Below, piece by piece: positions 20,990-46,009 of a stretch of 64,000 nucleotides of DNA. Below the pieces are notes generated by a model that saw only the letters and a program-made list of their open reading frames with translations, was not told the DNA's origin and searched no databases. Within the stretch, counting starts at the first letter, position 1; the number at the start of each line of letters is the position of its first letter. The stretch comes from Anadara kagoshimensis (taxonomy: Eukaryota > Mollusca > Bivalvia > Arcoida > Arcidae): NCBI GenBank assembly GCA_021292105.1, contig CM037870.1:17539087-17603086 (forward strand), in the 5' to 3' direction. A program made the translations under genes and the position numbers.

Positions 20990-22045
20990 GGACGCCAACA
21001 AAGTCTCGGATACATTTATAACAAAAGGGTATCTTTTGGAGACCAATAATCATTCAATCATACTTGCAAGAAACATAATTTGTTACAGGAGAAAAATGAG
21101 AAAATGAAAATGTAAATATTAATTAAACTAATAAATATTTACATTTTCATTTTTTCTCATTTTTCTCCTGTAACAAACCACAACACAAAAGTACTTTTGG
21201 ATAACCCTAACCATTCCTATACATTGAATCTTTTGGAGAACCGTAACCATTCCTATACAAGTTATAACAAAATGGTATCTTTTTGGAGAACCGTAACCAT
21301 TCCTATACAAGTTATAACAAAATGATATCTTTTGGAGAACCGTAACCATTCCTATATAAGTTATAACAAAATGGTATCTGTTGTAGAACCGTGACCATTC
21401 CTATACAAGTTATAACAAAATGATATCTTTTGAAATGGATTAGTATGTTTGTTTTTGATTGGAGAACCGTGACCATTCCTATACAAGTTATAACAAAATG
21501 GTATCTTTTATAGAACCGTGACCATTCCTATACAAGTTATAACAAAATGGTATCTTTTATAGAACCGTGACCATTCCTATACAAGTTATAACAAAATGAT
21601 ATCTTTTGAAATGGATTAGTATGTTTGTTTTTGATTGGAGAACCGTGACCATTCCTATACAAGTTATAACAAAATGGTGTCTGTTGTAGAACCGTAACCA
21701 TTCCTATACAAGTTATAACAAAATGGTATCTTTTATAGAACCGTGACCATTCCTATACAAGTTATAACAAAATGATATCTTTTGAAATGGATTAGTATGT
21801 TTGTTTTTGATTGGAGAACCGTGACCATTCCTATATAAGTTATAACAAAATGATAGCTTTTGGAGAACCGTAACCATTCCTATATCAGTTGTAACAAAAT
21901 GGTGTCTGTTGTAGAACCGTAACCATTCCTATACAAGTTATAACAGAATGGTATCTTTTATAGAACCGTGACCATTCCTATACAAGTTATAACAAAATGG
22001 TATCTTTTGGAGAACCGTGACCATTCCTATATAAGTTATAACAAA
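20990..22045. repeat. 49-bp satellite array, left segment
   Basis: The unit is CCATTCCTATACAAGTTATA + ACAAAATGRTATCTTTTGGA + GAACCGTAA, 49 bp. Monomers are degraded at the left edge (one at about 21003-21055) and regular from about 21190. Within it a 176-bp higher-order unit (three monomers plus a 29-bp insert) begins at 21432, 21608 and 21784. The array continues beyond the LINE to about 25683. Confidence 0.9.
21079..21177. repeat. 99-bp near-perfect palindrome at the satellite edge
   Basis: The left arm starts TTTGTTACAGGAGAAAAATG. The right arm ends CATTTTTCTCCTGTAACAAA. The arms are about 42 bp with a short AT-rich loop around 21121-21132. It lies between a degraded and a regular 49-bp monomer. 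Confidence 0.9.
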
Positions 22046-22059
22046 ATGTTAATACACAT

Positions 22060-22524
22060 CAATCTAGATGGTTCGACATTAAACAAGGTGTTCGCCAAGG
22101 AGGTGTCACATCAGCATTCCTTTACTTGGTTTTTATTAATGGCTTACTAGTTAAACTTGAAGAATGTGATGCATCAGCTAAAATATTTAACATTAAATGT
22201 GGGAACCCAAGTCTAGCAGATGACATATGCTGCATAAGTATATCTCCATCCGGGCTTCAAGAAATGTTAAACATATGCTATGATTACTCGATAACGTGGA
22301 GGTTCAATTTTAACCCAATTAAATCTTCTATTCTTGTCTTCGGAGATAATACCCGACAAAAATCTACACATCGCCTTAAATGGACACTCGGACAAAGTGA
22401 AATTCCAGTTGAAACTTCAGTATCTCATTTAGGTATTATTATAGACTCTAGTTTTAAGACAGAACAAAGAACTCGTCAAGCATGTGAAAATCTCTCTTTG
22501 CAATTAACGGCATTAATATTATGA
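22060..22524 (+). pseudogene. LINE reverse-transcriptase fragment
   Basis: The open stretch covers RT motifs: a QGVRQGGVTSAFLYLVFIN block, SLADDICCIS (active-site-like ADD) and SVSHLGIIIDSSF. The domain is truncated upstream by the insertion boundary. Downstream the reading continues in another frame. It cannot produce a functional enzyme. Confidence 0.85.
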
Positions 22525-22628
22525 ACCCATTAACAGCAGTGTCACTATACAACAAAGTTATTAAACCGTCTGTATTATATGGTTGTGAAGTATGGAATGG
22601 ACTCAAATATGTAGATCATTAGCTGCTT

Positions 22629-23465
22629 ATGAAGTTTCAACATTTTGTGGTCAAATATATTCAACATTTTCCTAAGCTAACCAGATCAGACATATGTGAA
22701 AGCATGGTTGGATTATTCCGTTTAACATCCGAAGTGGATCGACGTCAGCTCCTGTTTTTTAATCAATTGTGCAACTTTGATCCAAGCTCTCTCTCAAAAC
22801 AAATTTTCATATGTAGACTGTTTCAGTGTATTCTCAATCCAAACCATAAACATGGTGGATTTTTCAGCAATATTTTACTTCTCCTCGATAAATATAATTT
22901 ACTCCCGTACATTCACCAGTTTGCTTACAACGGTACAACTATCAGCAAGTTTATCTGGAAACGGACAGCAAATGAAGCAATCAAACGCTATGAAACTACT
23001 CAGTGGAACCAAAGAATAGAACAAGACCAAACTTTACATCCATTTCGCAACTTACATCCTTCTATCTCTCCGGCTGTGGTATGGACTCTTCCGAAGACAG
23101 ACAAAGAACTTTCGTTATGCCGATTTATTGCAAAACTTTGGACAGTCACACCAGCAACAGAAGTAAAACATTGTAACATATGCCAGTTATGCTACACAGA
23201 CATACTTCAACACATTCTCTGCGTATGTTCTCTTACCGATCCGTATAGATCCAGTTTTTGGTCCATGGTATCTTCATTATTTCACATAAATCTTACCGTC
23301 GAGCTTACATTTTACGATGATATTGAACTCACACAGATCCTACTGGGTAAACCTCCACTCACAGACATTGGTACAGTTGCGTTAAGGCAATTCAGACTTC
23401 ACAGTGTCTGCTTTACACAATACGTTTCAGCAGTGTATATGTCTCATGCTCAAACACAGCAATAA
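22629..23465 (+). pseudogene. LINE C-terminal domain with Cys/His knuckle
   Basis: A 278-codon open frame carries on from the RT thumb (KFQHFVVKYIQHFPKL). It ends with a Cys-rich knuckle at about residues 180-200, common in LINE C-termini, and terminates at TAA 23463-23465. It shares its frame with 22521-22619, from which it is split by a single stop. Confidence 0.8.
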
Positions 23466-23966
23466 TAGGCTTAAGTCCATATTTACACGGGAAGTGTTTC
23501 ACTACACTATACACTGAATGTGATATGTATATGTCATGCTGCGCAGTCCGGTTGAGCGGCGGGCACTGCAGACGGCTTGTTGGTGGGGATCGTTGCCCAA
23601 TCACTTGTTTTCCTGTCTCGCTTGCCGTTCGATTGGAAATGTGCTAGCATCTAATTTACTGGTATACGTGTATGTCCGCGCAACACGGTCTAGTTGGATA
23701 GCAGGTATTGCATGTAACTTGTTGGTGGGGATAGCTTGCCCAACCACTGGATCGCCTGCTCTGCCTGCTGTTGATCTAGAAGCGTGCCGCATAAATGCAC
23801 GTATATAAAAATATCTTGTTTCTATGTAAATATTATGTATAATCAAAATTTGTTTGTTTGTGTAATTATGTTTAAATTTATTGTTTATGTTCTGTGTTTA
23901 TAATTTTCTTAAAATCACATTGTAATCTCTTTAATAGAGGAAATAAAGATATGATGATGATGATGA

Positions 23967-25683
23967 ACCATTCTTATACAAGTTATAACAAAATGGTATC
24001 TTTTGGAGAACCGTAACCATTCCTATATAAGTTATAACAAAATGGTATCTTTTAGAGAACCGTAAACATTCCTATACAAGTTATAACAAAATGATATCTT
24101 TTGGAGAACCGTAAACATTCCTATACAAGTTATAACAAAATGGTATCTTTTGGAGAACCGTAACCATTCCTATACAAGTTATAACAAAATGATATCTTTT
24201 GGAGAACCGTAACCATTCCTATACAAGTTATAACAAAATGATATCTTTTGGAGAACCGTAACCATTCCTATATAAGTTATAGCAAAATGGTATCTTTTGG
24301 AGAACCGTAACCATTCCTATATAAGTTATAGCAAAATGGTATCTTTTGGAGAACCGTAACCATTCCTATACAAGTTATAACAAAATGATATCTTTTGGAG
24401 AACCGTAACCATTCCTATACAAGTAATAACAAAATGATATCTTTTGGAGAACCGTAACCATTCCTATACAAGTTATAACAAAATGATATCTTTTGGGGAA
24501 CCCTAACCATTCCTATACAAGTAATAACAAAATGATATCTTTTGTAGAACAGTAACCATTCCTATACAAGTTATAACAAAATGATATCTTTTGGGGAACC
24601 CTAACCATTCCTATACAAGTAATAACAAAATGATATCTTTTGGAGAACCGTAACCATTCCTATACAAGTTATAACAAAATGGTATCTTTTGTAGAACAGT
24701 AACCATTCCTATACAAGTTATAACAAAATGATATCTTTTGGGGAACCCTAACCATTCCTATACAAGTTATAACAAAATGATATCTTTTGGGGAACCCTAA
24801 CCATTCCTATACAAGTTATAACAAAATGGTATCTTTTGGGGAACCCTAACCATTCCTATACAAGTTATAACAAAATGGTATCTTTTGGAGAACCGTAACT
24901 ATTCCTATACAAGTTATAACAAAATGGTATCTTTTGGAGAACCGTAACTATTCCTATACAAGTTATAACAAAATGGTATCTTTTGTAGAACAGTAACCAT
25001 TCCTATATAAGTTATAACAAAATGATATCTTTTGGAGAACCCTAACCATTCCTATACAAGTTATAACAAAATGGTATCTTTTGGAGAACCGTAACCATTT
25101 ACATGTATATACAAGTTATAACAAAATGATATCTTTTGGAGAACCGTAACCATTCCTATACAAGTTATAACAAAATCGTATCTTTTGGAGAACCGTAACC
25201 ATTCCTATACAAGTTATAACACAATGGTATCTTTTGGAGAACCGTAACCATTCCTATACAAGTTATAACAAAATGATATCTTTTGGAGAACCGTAACCAT
25301 TCCTATACAAGTTATAACAAAATGATATCTTTTGAAGAACCGTAACAATTCCTATACAAGTTATAAGAAGATGATATCTTTTGGGGAACCTTAACCATTC
25401 ATATACAAGTTATAACAAAATGATATCTTTTGAAGAACCGTAACAATTCCTATACAAGTTATAAGAAGATGATATCTTTTGGGGAACCTTAACCATTCAT
25501 ATACAAGTTATAACAAAATGATATCTTTTGGAGAACCGTAACAATTTCCATACAAGTTATAACAAAATGATATCTTTTGGGGAACCTAAACTATTCATAT
25601 ACAAGATATAACAAAATGATATCTTTTGAAGAACCGTAACCATTTCCATACAAGTTATAACAAAATGGTATCTTTTGAAGAAA
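23967..25683. repeat. 49-bp satellite array, right segment
   Basis: About 35 more monomers of the same unit. Variants such as GGGGAACCCTAACC and GTAGAACAGTAACC recur in blocks, suggesting local amplification of multi-monomer units. Most monomers contain GATATC or GGTATC. The array ends at about 25683 in TTTTGAAGAAATTATTTTG. Confidence 0.92.
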
Positions 25684-29447: not shown

Positions 29448-29827
29448 GAGGGCACGGTGGCCTAATGGATAAGACGTCAGTCTTCAAATCCAGGGTCTTT
29501 CACCGCTGTGAGTTCGAGTCCCGCTCGGACCACATGTGGGAAAGTGAATTTTCCTTGCCGTTGACCTTTACTGATTCACCTGGTATCAGTATAATGGACT
29601 GGGGGAGTGGTACGCTTGTCTGCGGTGTACTGACTCTGTGAGCTAGCACGGTAAAGTCGCCCTGAGTGCACGCTAGTACAAGGCAGACCATACAACACAC
29701 TCGCACTTCACATGCATACACAAAATTGTTCATAGATTAATCCATAGAGATTAATTAAATAGTTCTCGTCGCAAATAGCTGAAAAATTGCTGATGCGACG
29801 TTAAGCAACATTCAACCAACCAACCAA
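29448..29827 (+). mobile_element. SINE family B, young copy with 14-bp TSD
   Basis: The head GGGCACGGTGGCCTAATGGA (A box) and GTGAGTTCGAGTCCCGCTC (B box) is tRNA-like. The body includes CACATGTGGGAAAGTGAATT and CTGAGTGCACGCTAGTACAA. The tail is GTTAAGCAACATTCAACCAA with (CCAA)n. CCCTATACGCCAGT flanks it exactly at 29434-29447 and 29828-29841. The perfect duplication indicates a recent insertion. Confidence 0.92.
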
Positions 29828-30534: not shown

Positions 30535-31606
30535 ATACCCACTGTGGTACAGCGTACACGGGATATTAAAGCATAAAATGAGCAAAACAGCCAGTGTAAA
30601 CAACACCAGCGCTAGTCGAAAGCCGATTTTTGGCTTATCTGTTCATTTTAACATGTGATTGTGTATTGGGTCATCAATCGGACACATAAATGATTCTATT
30701 GAAATAGTTAACTGCATCTGATACACTGTTTAAACTTTGAAACAAATTGATGAAGCGCAAGTGCTCACCTGTGATTTTGACGTCGCTGGGAGTTTCTTTC
30801 CAATATTTCAAATATTACCCGATAATTAAAAATTCTGAAGCGTACAATTCCTCTAGGATGTTAAGAACTACAGTCCACCAAATTTCAGCTCAATATTGAG
30901 ATATAAAGGAGCAGGAGACGTTGGAGGATAAACACGGTGTACTGGGAATTGCAAAAAGGTGTACTGGGTATTGGCAATTAAGGAGCAAATAGGTGTACTG
31001 GGAATTGAGAGGTCAAATATCTTGCCAGCATTCGTGTTTTAATGAATTTATATAGAAATTTATACTTCTTTTTCAATGACAAACAAAACAAAATTATCTA
31101 GTGAAAATCTTCAACATCTGTAATTAATCATGCATTATAGACGAGATGAAGATGAAACATACATAGACCACACCTTAAACCATATTTCCCCGATATATAG
31201 ATCTATAAGTGTTTACGAAACCATTACAATGGCCCATGTGTAATGTCAAAATATAATCCGTTCTTAAAGTTTGACAGTGACATAGCAAATGCAACTAGTG
31301 AAAGTAAAGAAAAAACTTTGTAGTTTGGAACTGAGCAGGAAAATGAAGATTACAATTTGAGAAATCTTTTAAAATATTTAACCTAATGTCATTAGATCGA
31401 ATCGACCAGCTAAAATATGACTTATTTATATCAAAGGTCAAGATGAGACAGTCGTCGGAAGAAAACAGATCCACAAATGTGACGAGAGTAACACGTCTTG
31501 AAACTGATTTATAAATAAATAGTTTTAACAATATAACACATTTTTTCATTTTTAATATGTTAAACATAGTTCATAGTGTCATGTGTTAATTTTGAATTTC
31601 TATTTA

Positions 31607-32112
31607 CGAGGGCGAATCAATAAGAAACCAGCTTAACCTTTTTCCGGATTAGATCCACTCTTCTTTTAATGTAATTCAGTGCCCTCTAGTGTGATGCACT
31701 TATCCATCACCCCAGAACTGAAAAAGACAGGGTCATTTCCATTGACCACTCCTCAACTGTTTCACGACTTCTTGGTCAGATCTGAATGACGTCCTCGGGT
31801 ATCATTTTTCAATTTTGGGAACAGAAGAAGTCGCTACGAGCTAGGCAGAATGTGGTATTAATTTCGTCCCCACAGCCTTCATTGTAACTTTGCAACTGTG
31901 TACTCTTTGCGTTGTCCTGTTGCGGCGGTTTCACGGATATCAGTTCTCGGGTGGTCTAGCAAGTTTGCATAGTACGCTCCAGTTATTGTACTTCTCTTTG
32001 GTTAAAAGCCACACACAATAACACTTTTTGCGTCCCAAAATACTGTGGCCATCACCTTGCCAGTAGACTAATGCTTCTTAACCTTCTTTGGCCTAGGAGA
32101 CCCAGGTCCTAT
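31607..32112 (-). mobile_element. mariner relic, C-terminal half and 3' TIR
   Basis: On the minus strand it encodes GKVMATVFWDAKSVIVCGF and STITGAYYANLLD, diagnostic of mariner transposase. Several stops and frame changes follow. The end CGAGGGCGAATCAATAAG at 31607 looks like a mariner TIR and lies next to TA (31605-31606). Confidence 0.8.
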
Positions 32113-32678
32113 CCACTGACGACTCTGTTCTTTATTGTCTGGCTCATATTATTGTACCAAATCTCATATACAGTCTTTAGACACAAAAGAAAATCATCTT
32201 TTGACATAAACGCTTCAACAAGGCGCTATATACTGATACTTTGGTTGTCAAAAATCCGCTCGATAGATTTTTTTAATTCATGTGTTCAGAAAGCAAATAT
32301 AGTTTTATCAAATAATATAGAAAAATCCTAATGTCAACCGATTCGATTTTCTGCAAATCCACGATGAAAGCTCAAATTTCATATCTACATGTATTCAAAA
32401 TTTCCAGTTTTTAGACACTGCCATTTTAGGCCTGTTAGTTTATCATATTACTACGCGAATAACCATAGCATTTCAGAAATAATGCACTAGGTAAAATATT
32501 ATATACATTTTTTTATTCCTTAATATCGGATGTGCAACTCAAAAATATGTATTCCGTTACGCTCTGCAAAAAAGTGCCTAAAACTATACGACACCTCGAT
32601 ACGCGTGTATTTTGTATCCAGGTATAAACATTGAAACAAGGCACAAAATAATGGCCGTGTTGGACAATCGGAAATGGG

Positions 32679-33027
32679 TTGGTTGGGTTAAATGTTGCTT
32701 AACGTCGCATCAGCAATTTTCCAGCTATTCGCGACGAGAATTTTTTTATTAATCTATGAACAAGTTCGTGTATGCATGTGTAGTGCGAGTGTGTTTTATG
32801 GTCTGCTTTGTACTAGGGCGCACTCAGGGCGACTTTAACGTGCTAGCTCACAGAGTCAGTATGCCGCAGAAAGCGTGCTACTCCCCAGGCACATTATACT
32901 GATACCAGGTAAACCAGTAAAGGCCAACGGCAAGAAAATTCACTTTCCCACATGTGGTCTGAGCGGGACTCGAACACACAGCGGTGAGGAACTTGGATTT
33001 GTAGATGTCTTATTCATTAGGCACTCT
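32679..33027 (-). mobile_element. SINE family B, young inverted copy with 14-bp TSD
   Basis: It is inverted relative to the 29.4-kb copy: TTGGTTGGGTTAAATGTTGC at the left, GGTCTGAGCGGGACTCGAAC near 32955. CAATCGGAAATGGG flanks it exactly at 32665-32678 and 33028-33041. It lies inside the CACTGTGG element and is younger than it. Confidence 0.92.
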
Positions 33028-33549
33028 CAATCGGAAATGGGATAGGATGGTCCCTCGTAAAATGAGATAAAAAACTCTACACATTCTAATAAATGTTTTC
33101 ATAATGCTATATGTCTTTTTGAGTCTAGTGACATTAACGTAAAGAACAGCTTGTATTGAAGCCAGTATGTTCTATGTAAATGCAACCTACATACTGATAA
33201 CGGTGCACAATTCCGGCCACTCATAAGTGATGCTGTTTAAAACGTGATATATTTTACCTTGAATCGGCAATTTTTAATCATTATATAGACAAGAACAATT
33301 TCTAATAATACTAATAAAGTATTATGCATATACCAAGCACCAACTGGCTGCAGTTTCACTATCATTTCTTAAGATTTGTCTGATTTAAATAGTCTACTTT
33401 TTGGAACAGCACATCTTTACTGAGCTTTCCCCCATTTCTTGAGTTTAATAATTTTCCGTAACTGCATCATAAGTGATGAATAGTATGTGTCATTGATTGT
33501 TTGTCCCTTTTGGAGATAACCTACCATCAGATATGATCAGCATCACTGG

Positions 33550-33960
33550 AAGCCGAGGTCATACCCTCTCCAGCTGATGTAACAGTATTGGTCTTTTTTC
33601 AGGGTGATCAAGTGTAAACTTTGGCCACTGGGGTGAAATGATGAACCCACGTTTCATCCATAGTAACTAATCTCTGAAAAAAGCACACAACAAAGTGCAC
33701 TTGATGTGCTCTGACCAATTTCAGATGCCTTGGTAAGTTGGTACCCAACTGAAAGCATTTCTCATTGCAAGATTTCTGTCAGAATTAAATGTAATACATG
33801 TATTTCCTGTGAAATGCCAACTGGCTACATACCATTCTGTAACTCGCTTGTCAGTCGTAACAATATCATAAACTTTATTGACCTTCTGGGGTTGCATCAA
33901 TGACAGACCTTCTAGAACAAGGGTCTTTCTGTTGCGTTTAAATCCCACAACCCACATTTT
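33550..33960 (-). mobile_element. mariner relic, N-terminal half
   Basis: The minus strand encodes RNLAMRNAFSWVPTYQ, resembling the 'LGMRKVCARWVP' helix-turn-helix end. It then encodes MDETWVHHFTP at about 33663-33630, the first catalytic Asp block of mariner transposase. It is divergent with stops. It lies in the same orientation and order as the 31.6-32.1 kb half, about 1.4 kb away. Confidence 0.72.
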
Positions 33961-34721
33961 TACTTTTGAATTTGAAGGTCATATTTCCTAGTGGGTACCA
34001 TATTAGTTTTGATATCCTTAAGTGTTAAACATTTTTATGAAAATATTGAATCATTATATGTCTCTTAATATTGGCAATCTACCTAATTCAATTTTGAAAT
34101 CAAGGTTAGAGCCTTTTCTATGAACACCTAATATTAACTTGCACCTGAAACTTATTTATTATTGTATGCACCATGCATACAAACTGTATCATACATTCGC
34201 AATCCCCAATTTCTTTAAAATTGGGACTTGAAAATAATGTTATACACGATTCTCGGTAACCGTAATTTTGCAATTCCCAGTACACTAAACAATGATGAGA
34301 ATCAATTCCCAGTACACCGCGTCGATCTTTCAACGTCTCCTGCTCCTTTATTTGCAATACATTGAGCTGAAATTTGGTCGACATGTAGTTCTTAACATCC
34401 TAGAGGAATTGTACGCTTCAGAATTTTTAATCAAGAAGTGAAAATTGAAATACTGAACAGAAACTCCCGGCGACGTCAAAATCACAGGTGAGCACTTGCG
34501 CTTCATCAATTTGTTTCAAAGTTTAAACAGTGTATCAGATGCAGTTAACTATTTCAATAGAAACGTTTATGTGTCCGATTGATGACCCAATACACAATCA
34601 CATGTTAAAATGAACAGATAAGTCAAAAATTGGCTTTCGACTCCCGCTGGTGTTGTTTACACTGGCTGTTTTGCTCATCTTATGCTTTAATATCCCGTGT
34701 ACGCTGTACCACAGTGATACC

Positions 34722-36469: not shown

Positions 36470-39400
36470 CTGCTGCGATATTTGACCTGAACGACATACA
36501 TTTTCCGTTTCTTTACCGATATGACAAACATTTCCCGTTTCTTTAGCGATATGACAAATATTTCCCGTTTCTTTAGCGATATCTGACCTGAACGACAAAC
36601 ATTTTCCGTTTCTTTACCGATATGACAAACATTTCCCGTTTCTTTAGCGATATCTGACCTGAACGTCAAACATTTTCCGTTTCTTTACCGATATGACAAA
36701 CATTTCCCGTTTCTTTAGCGATATGACAAATATTTCCCGTTTCTTTAGCGATATCTGACCTGAACGACAAACATTTTCCGTTTCTTTAGCGATATGACAA
36801 ACATCACCCGTTTCTTTAGCGATATCTGACCTGAACGTCAAACATTTTCCGTTTCTTTACCGATATGACAAACATTTCCCGTTTCTTTACCGATATCTGA
36901 CCTGAACGTCAAACATTTTCCGTTTCTTTACCGATATGACAAATATTTCCCGTTTCTTTACCGATATCTGACCTAAACGTCAAACATTTTCCGTTTCTTT
37001 ACCGATATGACAAACATTTCCCGTTTCTTTACCGATATCTGACCTGAACGTCAAACATTTTCCGTTTCTTTATCGATATGACAAACATTTCCCGTTTCTT
37101 TACCGATATCTGACCTGAACGTCAAACATTTTCCGGTTCTTTACCGATATGACAAACATTTCCCGTTTCTTACCGATATCTGACCTGAACGTCAAACATT
37201 TTCCGGTTCTTTACCGATATGACAAACATTTCCCGTTTCTTTAGCGATATCTGACCTGAACGTCAAACAATTTCCGTTTCTTTACCAATATCTGACTTGA
37301 ACGACAAACATTTATCGTTTCTCAAGCGATATGACAAACATTTCCCGTTTCTTTAGCGACATCTGACCTGAACGACAGACATTTTCCGTTTCTTTACCGA
37401 TATGACAAACATTTCCCGTTTCTTTAGCGATATCTGACCTGAACGTCAAACATTTTTCGTTTCTTTACCGATATGACAAACATTTTCCGTTTCTTTAGCG
37501 ATATGACAAATATTTCCCGTTTCTTTAGCGATATCTGACCTGAACGTCAAACATTTTTCGTTTCTTTACCGATATGACAAACATTTTCCGTTTCTTTAGC
37601 GATTTGACAAATATTTCCCGTTTCTTTAGCGATATCTGACCTGAACGTCAAACATTTTTCGTTTCTTTACCGATATGACAAACATTTTCCGTTTCTTTAC
37701 CGATATGACAAACATTTTCCGTTTCTTTAGCGATATGACAAATATTTCCCGTTTCTTTGGCGATATCTGACCTGAACGACAAACATTTTCCGTTTCTTTA
37801 GCGATATGACAAATATTTCCCGTTTCTTTAGCGATATCTGACCTGAACGTCAAACATTTTCCGTTTCTTTAGCGATATGACAAACATTTCCCGTTTCTTT
37901 AGCGATATCTGACCTGAACGACAAACATTTTCCGTTTCTTTAGCGATATGACAAACATTTCCCGTTTCTTTAGCGATATGACAAATATTTCCCGTTTCTT
38001 TAGCGATATCTGACCTGAACGACAAACATTTTTCGTTTCTTTACCGATATGACAAACATTTTCCGTTTCTTTAGCGATATCTGACCTTAACGTCAAACAT
38101 TTTTCGTTTCTTTACCGATATGACAAACATTTTCCGTTTCTTTAGCGATATCTGACCTGAACGTCAAACATTTTTCGTTTCTTTACCGGTATGACAAATA
38201 TTTCCCGTTTCTTTAGCGATATCTGACCTGAACGTCAAACATTTTTCGTTTCTTTACCGATATGACAAACATTTCCGTTTCTTTACCGATATGACAAATA
38301 TTTCCCGTTTCTTTAGCGATATCTGACCTGAACGTCAAACATTTTTCGTTTCTTTACCGATATGACAAACATTTTTCGTTTCTTTACCGATATGACAAAC
38401 ATTTCACGTTTCTTTACCGATATCTGACCTGAACGTCAAACATTTTCCGTTTCTTTACCGATATGACAAACATTTCCCGTTTCTTTACCGATATCTGACC
38501 TGAACGTCAAACATTTTCCGTTTCTTTACCGATATGACAAACATTTCCCGTTTCTTTACCGATATCTGACCTGAACGTCAAACATTTTCCGGTTCTTTAC
38601 CGATATGACAAACATTTCCCGTTTCTTTAGCGATATCTGACCTGAACGTCAAACAATTTCCGTTTCTTTACCAATATCTGACTTGAACGACAAACATTTA
38701 TCGTTTCTCAAGCGATATGACAAACATTTCCCGTTTCTTTAGCGACATCTGACCTGAACGACAGACATTTTCCGTTTCTTTACCGATATGACAAACATTT
38801 CCCGTTTCTTTAGCGATATCTGACCTGAACGTCAAACATTTTTCGTTTCTTTACCGATATGACAAACATTTTCCGTTTCTTTAGCGATATGACAAATATT
38901 TCCCGTTTCTTTAGCGATATCTGACCTGAACGTCAAACATTTTTCGTTTCTTTACCGATATGACAAACATTTTCCGTTTCTTTAGCGATATGACAAATAT
39001 TTCCCGTTTCTTTAGCGATATCTGACCTGAACGTCAAACATTTTTCGTTTCTTTACCGATATGACAAACATTTTCCGTTTCTTTACCGATATGACAAACA
39101 TTTTCCGTTTCTTTAGCGATATGACAAATATTTCCCGTTTCTTTGGCGATATCTGACCTGAACGACAAACATTTTCCGTTTCTTTAGCGATATGACAAAT
39201 ATTTCCCGTTTCTTTAGCGATATCTGACCTGAACGTCAAACATTTTCCGTTTCTTTAGCGATATGACAAACATTTCCCGTTTCTTTAGCGATATCTGACC
39301 TGAACGACAAACATTTTCCGTTTCTTTAGCGATATGACAAACATTTCCCGTTTCTTTAGCGATATCTGACCTGAACGTCAAACATTTTTCGTTTCTTTAC

Positions 39401-40085
39401 CGATATGACAAACATTTTCCGTTTCTTTAGCGATATCTGACCTGAACGTCAAACATTTTTCGTTTCTTTACCGATATGACAAATATTTCCCGTTTCTTTA
39501 GCGATATCTGACCTGAACGTCAAACATTTTTCGTTTCTTTACCGATATGACAAACATTTTCCGTTTCTTTAGCGATATGACAAATATTTCCCGTTTCTTT
39601 AGCGATATCTGACCTGAACGTCAAACATTTTTCGTTTCTTTACCGATATGACAAACATTTTTCGTTTCTTTACCGATATGACAAATATTTCCCGTTTCTT
39701 TAGCGATATCTGACCTGAACGTCAAACATTTTTCGTTTCTTTACCGATATGACAAACATTTTCCGTTTCTTTACCGATATGACAAACATTTTCCGTTTCT
39801 TTGGCGATATGACAAATATTTCCCGTTTCTTTAGCGATATCTGACTTGAACGTCAAACATTTTCCGTTTCTTTAGCGATATGACAAACATTTCCCGTTTC
39901 TTTAGCGATATCTGACCTGAACGACAAACATTTTCCGTTTCTTTAGCGATATGACAAATATTTCCCGTTTCTTTAGCGATATCTGACCTGAACGTCAAAC
40001 ATTTTCCGTTTCTTTAGCGATATGACAAACATTTCCCGTTTCTTTAGCGATATCTGACCTGAACGACAAACATTTTTCGTTTCTT
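36470..40085. repeat. 41-bp satellite, higher-order 41/30-bp segment
   Basis: The 41-bp monomer is GATATCTGACCTGAACGTCA + AACATTTTCCGTTTCTTTACC. It alternates with a 30-bp form, GATATGACAAACATTTCCCG + TTTCTTTAGC, which lacks 11 bp (the CTGACCTGAAC part). Patterns of one 41-mer plus one, two or three 30-mers make higher-order units of 71, 101 or 131 bp. A block at about 37180-37975 recurs at about 38566-39361, offset 1386 bp. Short minus-strand ORFs (RSDIAKETGN-type) are products of the repeat, not genes. Confidence 0.95.
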
Positions 40086-43000
40086 TAGCGATATCCGGCC
40101 TGAAAGACGCACATTCCGCGTTTCATTTGGGATATCTGAGATGAAGGACTAGTATTTCCCGTTTCTTTAGCGATATCCCACCCGAAGGACAATTATTCCA
40201 CGTTTCTTTTGCGATATCTGACCTGAAAGACAAACGTTTAACGTTTCTTTGGCGATATCCCACCTAAGAACAAAATTCTACGTTCTTTAGCGATATCCCA
40301 CCTAAAGGACAAACATTTCGCGTTTCTTTAACGATATCCCACCTGAAGGACAACCATTCCACGTTCTTTAGCGATATCCCACCTGAAGGACAACCATTCC
40401 ACGTTCTTTAGCGATATCCCACCTGAAGGACAATCATTACACGTTCTTTAGCGATATCCCACCTGAGGGACAATCATTCCACGTTCTTTAGCGATATCCC
40501 ACCTGAAGGACAATCATTACACGTTCTTTAGCGATATCCCACCTGAAGGACAATCATTCCACGTTTCTATAGCGATATCCCACCTGAGGGACAATCATTC
40601 CACGTTCTTTAGCGATATCTTACCCGAAGGGCAATCATTCCACGTTTCTATAGCGATATCCGGCCTGAAGGACAATCATTCCACGTTTCTATAGCGATAT
40701 CCGGCCTGAAGGACAATCATTCCACGTTTCTATAGCGATATCCCACCTGAAGGACAATCATTCCACGTTTCTATAGCGATATCCCACCTGAAGGGCAATC
40801 ATTCCACGTTTCTATAGCGATATCCCACCTGAAGGACAATCATTCCACGTTTCTATAGCGATATCCCACCTGAAGGACAATCATTACACGTTTCTATAGC
40901 GATATCCGGACTGAAGGACAATCATTCCACGTTTTTATAGCGATATCCGGCCTGAAGGACAATCATTCCACGTTTCTATAGCAATATCCCACCTGAGGGA
41001 CAATCATTCCACGTTTCTATAGCGATATCCCACCTGAGGGACAATCATTCCACGTTCTTTAGCGAGATCTTACCCGAAGGGCAATCATTCCACGTTTCTA
41101 TAGCGATATCCGGCCTGAAGGACAATCATTCCACGTTTCTATAGCGATATCCGGCCTGAAGGACAATCATTCCACGTTTCTATAGCGATATCCCACCTGA
41201 AGGGCAATCATTCCACGTTTCTATAGCGATATCCCACCTGAGGGACAATCATTCCACGTTTCTATAGCGATATCCCACCTGAAGGGCAATCATTCCACGT
41301 TTCTATAGCGATATCCCACCTGAAGGACAATCACTCCACGTTTCTATAGCGATATTCCATCTGAAGGACAATCATATCGCGTCTCTTTAGCGATATCCCA
41401 CCTGAAGGTCAATCATTCCACGTTTCTATAGCCATATCCCACCTGAAGGACAATCACTCCACGTTTCTATAGCGATATTCCATCTGAAGGACAATCATAT
41501 CGCGTCTCTTTAGCGATATCCCACCTGAAGGACAATCACTCCACGTTTCTATAGCGATATTCCATCTGAAGGACAATCATATCGCGTCTCTTTAGCGATA
41601 TCCCACCTGAAGGTCAATCATTCCACGTTTCTATAGCGATAGCCCACCTGAAGGACAATCACTCCACGTTTCTATAGCGATATCCCACCTGAAGGACAAT
41701 CACTCCACGTTTCTATAGCGATATCCCACCTGAAGGACAATCACTCCACGTTTCTATAGCGATATCCCACCTGAAGGACAATCACTCCACGTTTCTTTAG
41801 CGATATCCCACCTGAAGGGCAATCATTCCACGTTTCTATAGCGATATCCCACCTGAAGGGCAATCATTCCACGTTTCTATAGCCATATCCCACCTGAAGG
41901 ACAATCACTCCACGTTTCTATAGCGATATTCCATCTGAAGGACAATCACTCCACGTTTCTATAGCGATATCCCACCTGAAGGACAATCATTCCACGTTTC
42001 TATAGCGATATCCCACCTGAGGGACAATCATTCCACGTTTCTATAGCGATATACCACCTGAAGGACAATCATTCCACGTTTCTATAGCGATATCCCACCT
42101 GAGGGACAATCATTCCACGTTTCTATAGCGATATCCCACCTGAGGGACAATCATTCCACGTTTCTATAGCGATATCCCACCTGAAGGGCAATCATTCCAC
42201 GTTTCTATAGCCATATCCCACCTGAAGGACAATCACTCCACGTTTCTATAGCGATATTCCACCTGAAGGACAATCATATCGCGTCTCTTTAGCGATATCC
42301 CACCTGAAGGTCAATCATTTCACATTTTTTTAGCGATATCCCACCTGAAGGTCAACCCTATAGCATTTATTTAGCGATATCCCACCTGAAGGGCAATCAT
42401 TCCACGTTTCTTTAGCGATATCCCACCTGAAGGTCAATCATTCCACGTTTCTATAGCCATATCCCACCTGAAGGACAATCACTCCACGTTTCTATAGCGA
42501 TATTCCATCTGAAGGACAATCATATCGCGTCTCTTTAGCGATATCCCACCTGAAGGACAATCACTCCACGTTTCTATAGCGATATTCCATCTGAAGGACA
42601 ATCATATCGCGTCTCTTTAGCGATATCCCACCTGAAGGGCAATCATTCCACGTTTCTATAGCCATATCCCACCTGAAGGACAATCACTCCACGTTTCTAT
42701 AGCGATATTCCATCTGAAGGACAATCATATCGCGTCTCTTTAGCGATATCCCACCTGAAGGTCAATCATTTCACATTTCTTTAGCGATATCCCACCTGAA
42801 GGTCAACCCTATAGCATTTATTTAGCGATATCCCACCTGAAGGGCAATCATTCCACGTTTCTTTAGCGATATCCCACCTGAAGGGCAATCATTCCACGTT
42901 TCTATAGCGATATCCCACCTTAAGGACAATCACTCCACGTTTCTATAGCGATATTCCATCTGAAGGTCAATCATTTCGCATTTCTTTATCAATATCCCAC

Positions 43001-43440
43001 CTGAAGGTCAATCATTTCGCATTTCTTCAGCAATATCCCACCTGGAGATCAATCATTTCGCATTTCTTTAGCAATATCCCACCTGAAGGTCAATCATTTC
43101 GCATTTCTTTAGCGAAATCCCACCTGAAGGTCAATCATTTCGCATTTCTTTAGGGATATCCCACCTGAAGGTCAATCATTCCGCATTTCTTTAGCGAAAT
43201 CCCACCTGAAGGTCAATCATTTTGCATTTCTTTAGGGAAATCCCACCTGAAGGTCAATCATTTCGCATTTCTTTAGAATATCCCACCTGAAGGTCAATCA
43301 TTCCGCATTTCTATAGCGAAATCCCACCTGAAGGTCAATCATTTTGCATTTCTTTAGCAATATCCCACCTAAAACATAATCATTCTACGTTTCTATAGCG
43401 ATATCCAGCCTGAAGAACAAGCATAACCCGTTGTTTCACT
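40086..43440. repeat. 41-bp satellite, uniform 41-mer segment
   Basis: The monomer is GATATCCCACCTGAAGGACA + ATCATTCCACGTTTCTATAGC. Subfamilies lie in order: GTTCTTTAGC forms at about 40.2-40.6 kb, GTTTCTATAGC forms to about 42.9 kb with interspersed CATATCGCGTCTCTTTAGC monomers, then AAGGTCAATCATTTCGCATT forms to 43.4 kb. The 30-bp form is absent. Confidence 0.95.
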
Positions 43441-45104: not shown

Positions 45105-46009
45105 ACAATCATTTGGCGTCTCTTTAGCGATATCCCACCTGAAGGTCAATCATTTAGCATCTCTTTAGCGATATCCCACCTGAAGGTCAATCATTTCGCA
45201 TTTCTTTAGTGATATCCCACCTGAAGGACAATCACTCCATGTTTCTATAGCGATATCCCACCTGAAGGTCAATCATTTCGCATTTCTTTAGCGATATCCC
45301 ACCTAAGGTCAATCATTTCGCATTTCTTTAGCAATATCCCACCTGAAGGTCAATCATTTCGCATTTCTTTAGCGATATCCCACCTGAAGGTCAATCATTT
45401 CGCATTTCTTTAGCGATATCCCACCTGAAGGTCAATCATTTCACATTTCTTTAGCAATATCCCACCTGAAGGTCAATCATTTCACATTTCTTTAGCGATA
45501 TCCCACCTGAAGGTCAATCATTTCACATTTCTTTAGCGATATCCCACCTGAAGGTCAATCATTTGACATTTCTTTAGCGATATCCCACCTGAAGGTCAAT
45601 CATTTCGCATTTCTTTAGCGATATCCCACCTGAAGGTCAATTATTTAACGTTTCTTTAGCGATATCCCACCTGAAGGTCAATCATTTCGCATTTCTTTAG
45701 CAATATCCCACCTGAAGGTCAATCATTTAACGTTTATTTTGCGAGATCCCACCTGAAGGTCAATCATTTCACATTTCTTTAGCGATATCCCACCTGAAGG
45801 TCAATCATTTCGCATTTCTTTAGCAATATCCCACCTGAAGGTCAATCATTTAACGTTTATTTTGCGAGATCCCACCTGAAGGTCAATCATTTCACATTTC
45901 TTTAGCGATATCCCACCTGAAGGTCAATCATTTCACATTTCTTTAGCGATATCCCACCTGAAAGATGATCATTCTACGTTTCTATAGCGATATCCAGCCT
46001 GAAGAACAA
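45105..46009. repeat. 41-bp satellite, second block
   Basis: About 22 monomers of the AAGGTCAATCATTTCGCATT subfamily, the same one that ends the first block at 43.0-43.4 kb. This is expected if the satellite edge and its flank were duplicated together. Confidence 0.95.

Follow-up and report, generated by a model that had tools for sequence, protein, structure and literature searches.

The question raised by this locus is whether a 4.2-kb segment with long inverted repeats, found in a 64,000-nucleotide stretch of the Anadara kagoshimensis genome (contig CM037870.1; the whole stretch is called the window here), is a mobile element, and if so, which type of transposase moves it. The first bases of the element are CACTGTGG and the last bases are CCACAGTG; its start reads CACTGTGGTACAGCGTACAC, and the opposite end is the reverse complement of CACTGTGGTACAGCGTACAC. 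The element and its borders in the window are as follows.

30535..30539, no strand: left copy of the target site duplication ATACC (sequence read)
30540..34716, plus strand: whole non-autonomous element, 4177 bp
30540..30951, plus strand: left terminal inverted repeat, ~412 bp (arm-to-arm alignment)
30540..30599, plus strand: outer 60 bp, where the arm is best conserved (own-arm divergence, mean of 19 copies)
34303..34716, minus strand: right terminal inverted repeat, ~414 bp, 92.5% alike to the left arm (arm-to-arm alignment)
34717..34721, no strand: right copy of the target site duplication ATACC (sequence read)

The two arms pair over 333 nt without gaps (30540-30872 with 34384-34716, 94% complementary), beyond which the pairing goes on in pieces of 22 and 49 nt, and the gapped alignment joins 412 to 414 bp at 92.5% identity. 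The 4.2-kb element, the ATACC duplication and the inverted repeats proposed by the first-pass annotation are all present, and its arm length of ~450 bp is corrected to the measured ~412 bp.

The long inverted repeats could, taken by themselves, have come from a local inverted duplication or an assembly artefact, and nothing beyond them speaks for a segment that is not mobile. When the genome (1.115 Gb, 36 contigs) was searched with the outer 44 bp, allowing up to three mismatches, 621 ends were found on many contigs (311 forward and 310 reverse), while the reversed control of this pattern had 0 and 0 matches genome-wide. If the ends come in pairs, they correspond to ~310 elements, which suggests a family of roughly 300 copies. 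An initial search with the window's own left end gave 902 candidates, the best 40 of which were scored and listed, and the sample read whole consists of the window copy and 19 others, obtained from 20 stretches, two of which are halves of one element. Because they were picked from the best 40 matches to the window's left end, the 19 others are close relatives and not a random sample. All 20 complete copies, window included, carry CACTGTG at both ends and an exact 5-bp target duplication, for which the chance is ~0.0016 per copy and which extends to 6 bp in none of them; 8-bp duplications were found in 0 of the 20 and 3-bp duplications were likewise absent from the same 20. The duplicated sequences vary between copies (ATACT, GAGAT, GTTGT, ATACA etc.) and the flanks differ; C is almost avoided at the first position of the duplication (1/40, both strands counted), and the G+C content of the duplications, 34%, is close to the 34.6% of the window. 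Element length is 3.7-4.5 kb in 18 of the 20 copies, the two longer ones being due to insertions, and divergence from the majority sequence is 1.9-4.0% in 18 copies that were close relatives by selection.

Terminal inverted repeats, a duplication of constant length and dispersed copies together identify the element as a cut-and-paste DNA transposon (class II, TIR order). The artefact reading, to which we assign a negligible probability, is refuted by the spread of hundreds of ends over many contigs and by the 20 of 20 complete copies, whose flanks differ and whose duplications are exactly 5 bp. The dispersed family and the 5-bp duplication in collected copies that had been predicted from the window sequence were both found, and none of the outcomes named as contrary to that prediction appeared: there were no 3- or 8-bp duplications (n = 20), no hAT or CACTA transposase was seen inside, and the loci are many. 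The duplication length also separates the family from several known groups. CACTA/EnSpm elements proper have duplications of ~3 bp (2-4 bp) and Mutator-like elements, which the family resembles in its long inverted repeats, have duplications of ~9 bp, whereas that of the family is exactly 5 bp; the 8-bp duplication of canonical hAT elements is likewise not that of the family. At C9:22642295-22645723, three family-type ends lie on the same strand ~1.7 kb apart, perhaps in a local tandem arrangement.

The family has a Transib-type look in its mode of insertion because of its CAC..GTG ends and 5-bp duplications. Transib and RAG-like elements are described as having CAC tips together with 5-bp duplications (PMC7204232), and the CAC tips of the family resemble the heptamer of the RSS. 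These two features appear to favour a Transib-type transposase acting in trans, and we propose, with a probability of roughly 0.6, that the family is a non-autonomous cut-and-paste transposon that would be moved in trans by a transposase of the Transib branch of the CACTA/Mirage/Chapaev/Transib (CMCT) group. According to this proposal, a DDE-type transposase supplied from elsewhere would recognise the outermost tens of bases (CACTGTGGTACAGCGTACAC...) and cut at the CAC tips, the tips would then be joined to the target, and a 5-bp staggered cut of the target would give rise to the 5-bp duplication. The heptamer and the 5-bp duplication are suggestive, not decisive, because hAT5 elements also make a 5-bp duplication, and CAC tips are not unique to Transib, because EnSpm families also end in CAC..GTG (PMC12730594).

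Comparison with individual Transib elements, as they are described in the available extracts of the literature, gives a mixed picture. Hztransib combines long TIRs with a 5-bp duplication (PMC1852546), as the family does, whereas TransibSU has 13-bp repeats (PMC4411706), as compared with ~412 bp in the family. The earlier remark that the TIRs are much longer than usual therefore holds against TransibSU and fails against Hztransib. The duplications quoted for Transib, GCTCG and CCAGG, are richer in G+C than the 34% of the family. Among the molluscs covered by one survey, the count of Transib elements was one (PMC10294476), a point against a Transib-type enzyme. Protostome RAG-like elements, for which the end consensus CACTWMCAAACKTYKBB is given, share with the family the first bases CACT and 5-bp duplications, but the family tip CACTGTGGTACAGCGTAC, compared by eye, departs from that consensus after CACT; non-autonomous RAG-like forms are reported in Pinctada imbricata and several deuterostomes (PMC7204232). 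Of the Transib/RAG-like pairing put forward at first pass, the heptamer and the 5-bp duplication are in place, the RAG-like consensus fits only at CACT, and the Transib/RAG1 type of the enzyme stays putative. The string CACTGTG occurs once in PMC4513396, according to a search listing of that paper. No recognised description of the family was found in the literature searched, and as far as that literature goes the family is apparently new, though ordinary in kind. It is dispersed, with long arms and 5-bp duplications, and its description as a non-autonomous long-TIR family, to that same extent undescribed, can be kept.

The longest stop-to-stop open reading frame in the interior of the window element is only 123 aa. 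No transposase was found in the copies or the subfamily pieces read, in which the frames were mostly judged by eye; the earlier statement that no transposase is readable inside is therefore confirmed and extends to the copies read. A DDE transposase of Transib/RAG1 type, which the first-pass annotation had suggested looking for, was likewise not found inside them, in which the copies read differ from Transib.

Elsewhere in the genome, the Pfam RAG1 model has one match, C8:56669592-56669981, which lies inside an 832-aa open frame, and the 832-aa protein matches PDB RAG1 over its C-terminal part (E 2e-5). This RAG1-like (CMCT-type) frame occupies C8:56669253-56671481 (L041, L042), and its tail is, we assume, SAP-like. 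Relatives of the frame include three equal-score places with 715-aa frames on C4, C8 and C9, and among the relatives listed there are also 31 short places that match only the last ~72 aa. The C8 protein finds at least 63 places (best 60 of 235 candidates scored), several with stop-free frames. Such frames lend something to the view that the mover is a CMCT-type transposase of another or an undescribed kind, such as one from a lineage like that of the C8 gene, and not Transib proper; so do the ends and duplications of CMCT elements, which are mostly CA..TG and 2-5 bp, respectively (PMC12730594). Against it, the surroundings of the C8 gene, the one RAG1-like gene whose neighbourhood was read, contain no match to the element's tip over 29 kb, and the sole CCACAGTG there sits inside the gene. 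When the C8 protein was compared with the elements, its best match, at E 0.68, was not convincing. On the strength of these two results the C8 gene is regarded as unlinked, and no link to it as the source of the family's enzyme was found. Moreover, when the at least 63 RAG1-like places were compared with 166 listed ends, both lists being partial, none lay within 129 kb (nearest, 129 kb). The family also differs from RAG-like elements in that no linked RAG1-like gene was found among the places listed, the single Pfam RAG1 match being unlinked. We consider a CMCT-type enzyme other than that of Transib proper rather unlikely.

A further alternative is that the family, itself non-autonomous, depends for its movement on a hAT transposase from the hAT5 group. 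hAT sequences are abundant in this genome, where 150 places were scored of 724 candidates found with the hAT model, but the CAC tip of the family does not fit the usual hAT tip, YARNG, and no linked hAT gene appears in the partial lists: between the 150 hAT places and 175 listed ends the smallest distance is 26 kb, which is a weak test with lists that are partial. The hAT5 group is defined by 5-bp duplications (PMC12730594), the length found in 20/20 copies of the family. On balance, a hAT5 enzyme seems to us unlikely. One hAT group, spread over many contigs, looks recently active; among the places scored, 20 of its members have equal scores (E 5.5e-11), and 12 of these lie in 722-aa frames.

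What the family means depends on which of these enzymes moves it. If it is of Transib type, as we prefer, the superfamily tied to how V(D)J recombination arose would gain a large family whose ends are unusually long and whose heptamer is that of the RSS, CACAGTG, in reverse complement; so many copies could then serve to ask which part of a long end is required by the transposase. Should it belong to hAT5 or another group, the combination of heptamer and 5-bp duplication would be a weak marker for RAG relatives. At present, the value of the result lies in annotating a family of ~300 copies, and it is not a surprise.

Seven longer copies were considered as autonomous versions and rejected, all being family members with insertions, as judged from their frames by eye. 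Two of them were read whole (L022, 7.06 kb; L024/L025, 10.86 kb), and for five more long pairs, taken from the matches listed (4.9, 5.0, 5.1, 6.7 and 7.9 kb; L045-L049), the part between the arms was read; L049 has a local duplication besides its insertion, and a smaller insertion is found in the 4.5-kb copy L038. At 132 places, compared with 67 for the reversed control, the tip CACTGTGGTAC is followed by sequence foreign to the family, and 125 bp were read at 20 such places among the matches listed. Eighteen of these were rejected as other elements of the kind, being by eye unrelated repeats or singletons, and two (L062, L063) are related ends, of which 2.7 kb each were read with no transposase-like frame seen by eye. 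Piece by piece, L062 is 74-87% alike to the first family and counts as an older copy of it, and L063 shares just its first 193 bp with the family, its own next part being found at one other place among the best 40 scored.

The first 85 bp of this divergent L063 end gave 748 candidates, and among the best 40 scored there are six coordinate pairs, with spacings of 4915-4972 bp in five and of 5932 bp in the sixth; a second subfamily of ~4.9 kb exists. A 2.4-kb middle piece of one of its copies (L072) showed no transposase and matches the first-family interior in pieces at 73-93%; as far as this piece shows, the common ancestor of both groups therefore already had that interior. The piece also carries an inserted dispersed repeat of ~1.06 kb, which by eye has a Penelope-like look; Pfam gave no reverse transcriptase. 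A stricter tip pattern found nine sites (control, 0), two of which were read. One, C8:13137068 (L074), is a form that has diverged; its arms are shorter, and the motif array is the same. The other, C4:20993260, was first taken for an autonomous element because of an ATG ~195 bp in, and proved to be a family tip with another, very common transposon inserted ~20 bp inside. That transposon, followed from C4:20993260 downwards (L073), starts at about TAGTCCGACTAATCAGCC and has 1889 candidates, the best 40 of which were scored; among these 40, its ends form at least four pairs ~1.4-3.6 kb apart.

The arms were compared over 19 copies, L038 being left out because an insertion interrupts its arm. The two arms of one element differ by 6.1% on average, and left and right arms of different copies by 7.1%. 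The own-arm difference is 0.7% in the first 60 bp versus 1.8-17% in the inner 60-bp blocks (means of 19 copies), where the low value at the tip may partly have been helped by choosing the copies through their first 166 bp. In the arm tree, the left arms of four of the 19 copies (L024, L030, L037 and L040) group with right arms, which we read as the possible trace of occasional exchange between arms, by which long arms would be kept partly alike. Relative to the window element, L024 and L040 have breakpoints in common, and their regrouping may be one event. At the inner borders of the two repeats, copies of a 15-bp motif are found in the window as well as in the majority sequence.

30937..31007, plus strand: three copies of the 15-bp motif GTGTACTGGGAATTG (at 30937, at 30959 with one change, and at 30993), inner border of the left repeat
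34271..34317, minus strand: two inverted copies of the 15-bp motif GTGTACTGGGAATTG (34271-34285 and 34303-34317), inner border of the right repeat

Judged from sequence, the copies of GTGTACTGGGAATTG are possible protein-binding sites. A lineage that takes in this element as well as its diverged subfamilies and is defined jointly by CACTGTGGTAC tips, partly homogenised arms of hundreds of bases, the 15-bp motif array and 5-bp duplications could also have a transposase from an undescribed RAG1/CMCT branch that is neither classical Transib, RAG-like nor hAT5, a reading that we hold to be quite unlikely. Overall, the mover of the family is probably an enzyme of Transib type or of a related CMCT kind, and the Transib-branch enzyme remains the one we prefer.

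The interior of the element is probably passenger DNA, a patchwork of older repeats, in which three stretches stand out.

31640..31970, minus strand: decayed mariner-transposase-like stretch, limits approximate (mariner-like motif; no Pfam match)
32674..33030, no strand: nested dispersed repeat, limits approximate, also at window 29448-29821 (88% alike)
33608..33978, minus strand: second decayed mariner-like stretch, with the motif MDETWVHHF

The motifs in the first and third stretches are those that we take to be mariner-like. In the PDB, the first stretch hits SETMAR weakly (E 0.74) and ranks this below an unrelated hit at 0.51, and the third has no match in Pfam or PDB; the dispersed repeat has a further match on C8. 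Outside the element, large arrays of a 41-bp and a related 30-bp tandem repeat occupy window 36475-43432 and 45106-46004. Open frames of 160 and 280 aa at 21228-25682, bordered by a 49-bp tandem repeat, have, by eye, the look of a non-LTR retrotransposon remnant, and the minus strand at 195-1655 contains a 486-aa open frame with, also by eye, C2H2 zinc-finger-like repeats and a lysine-rich stretch.
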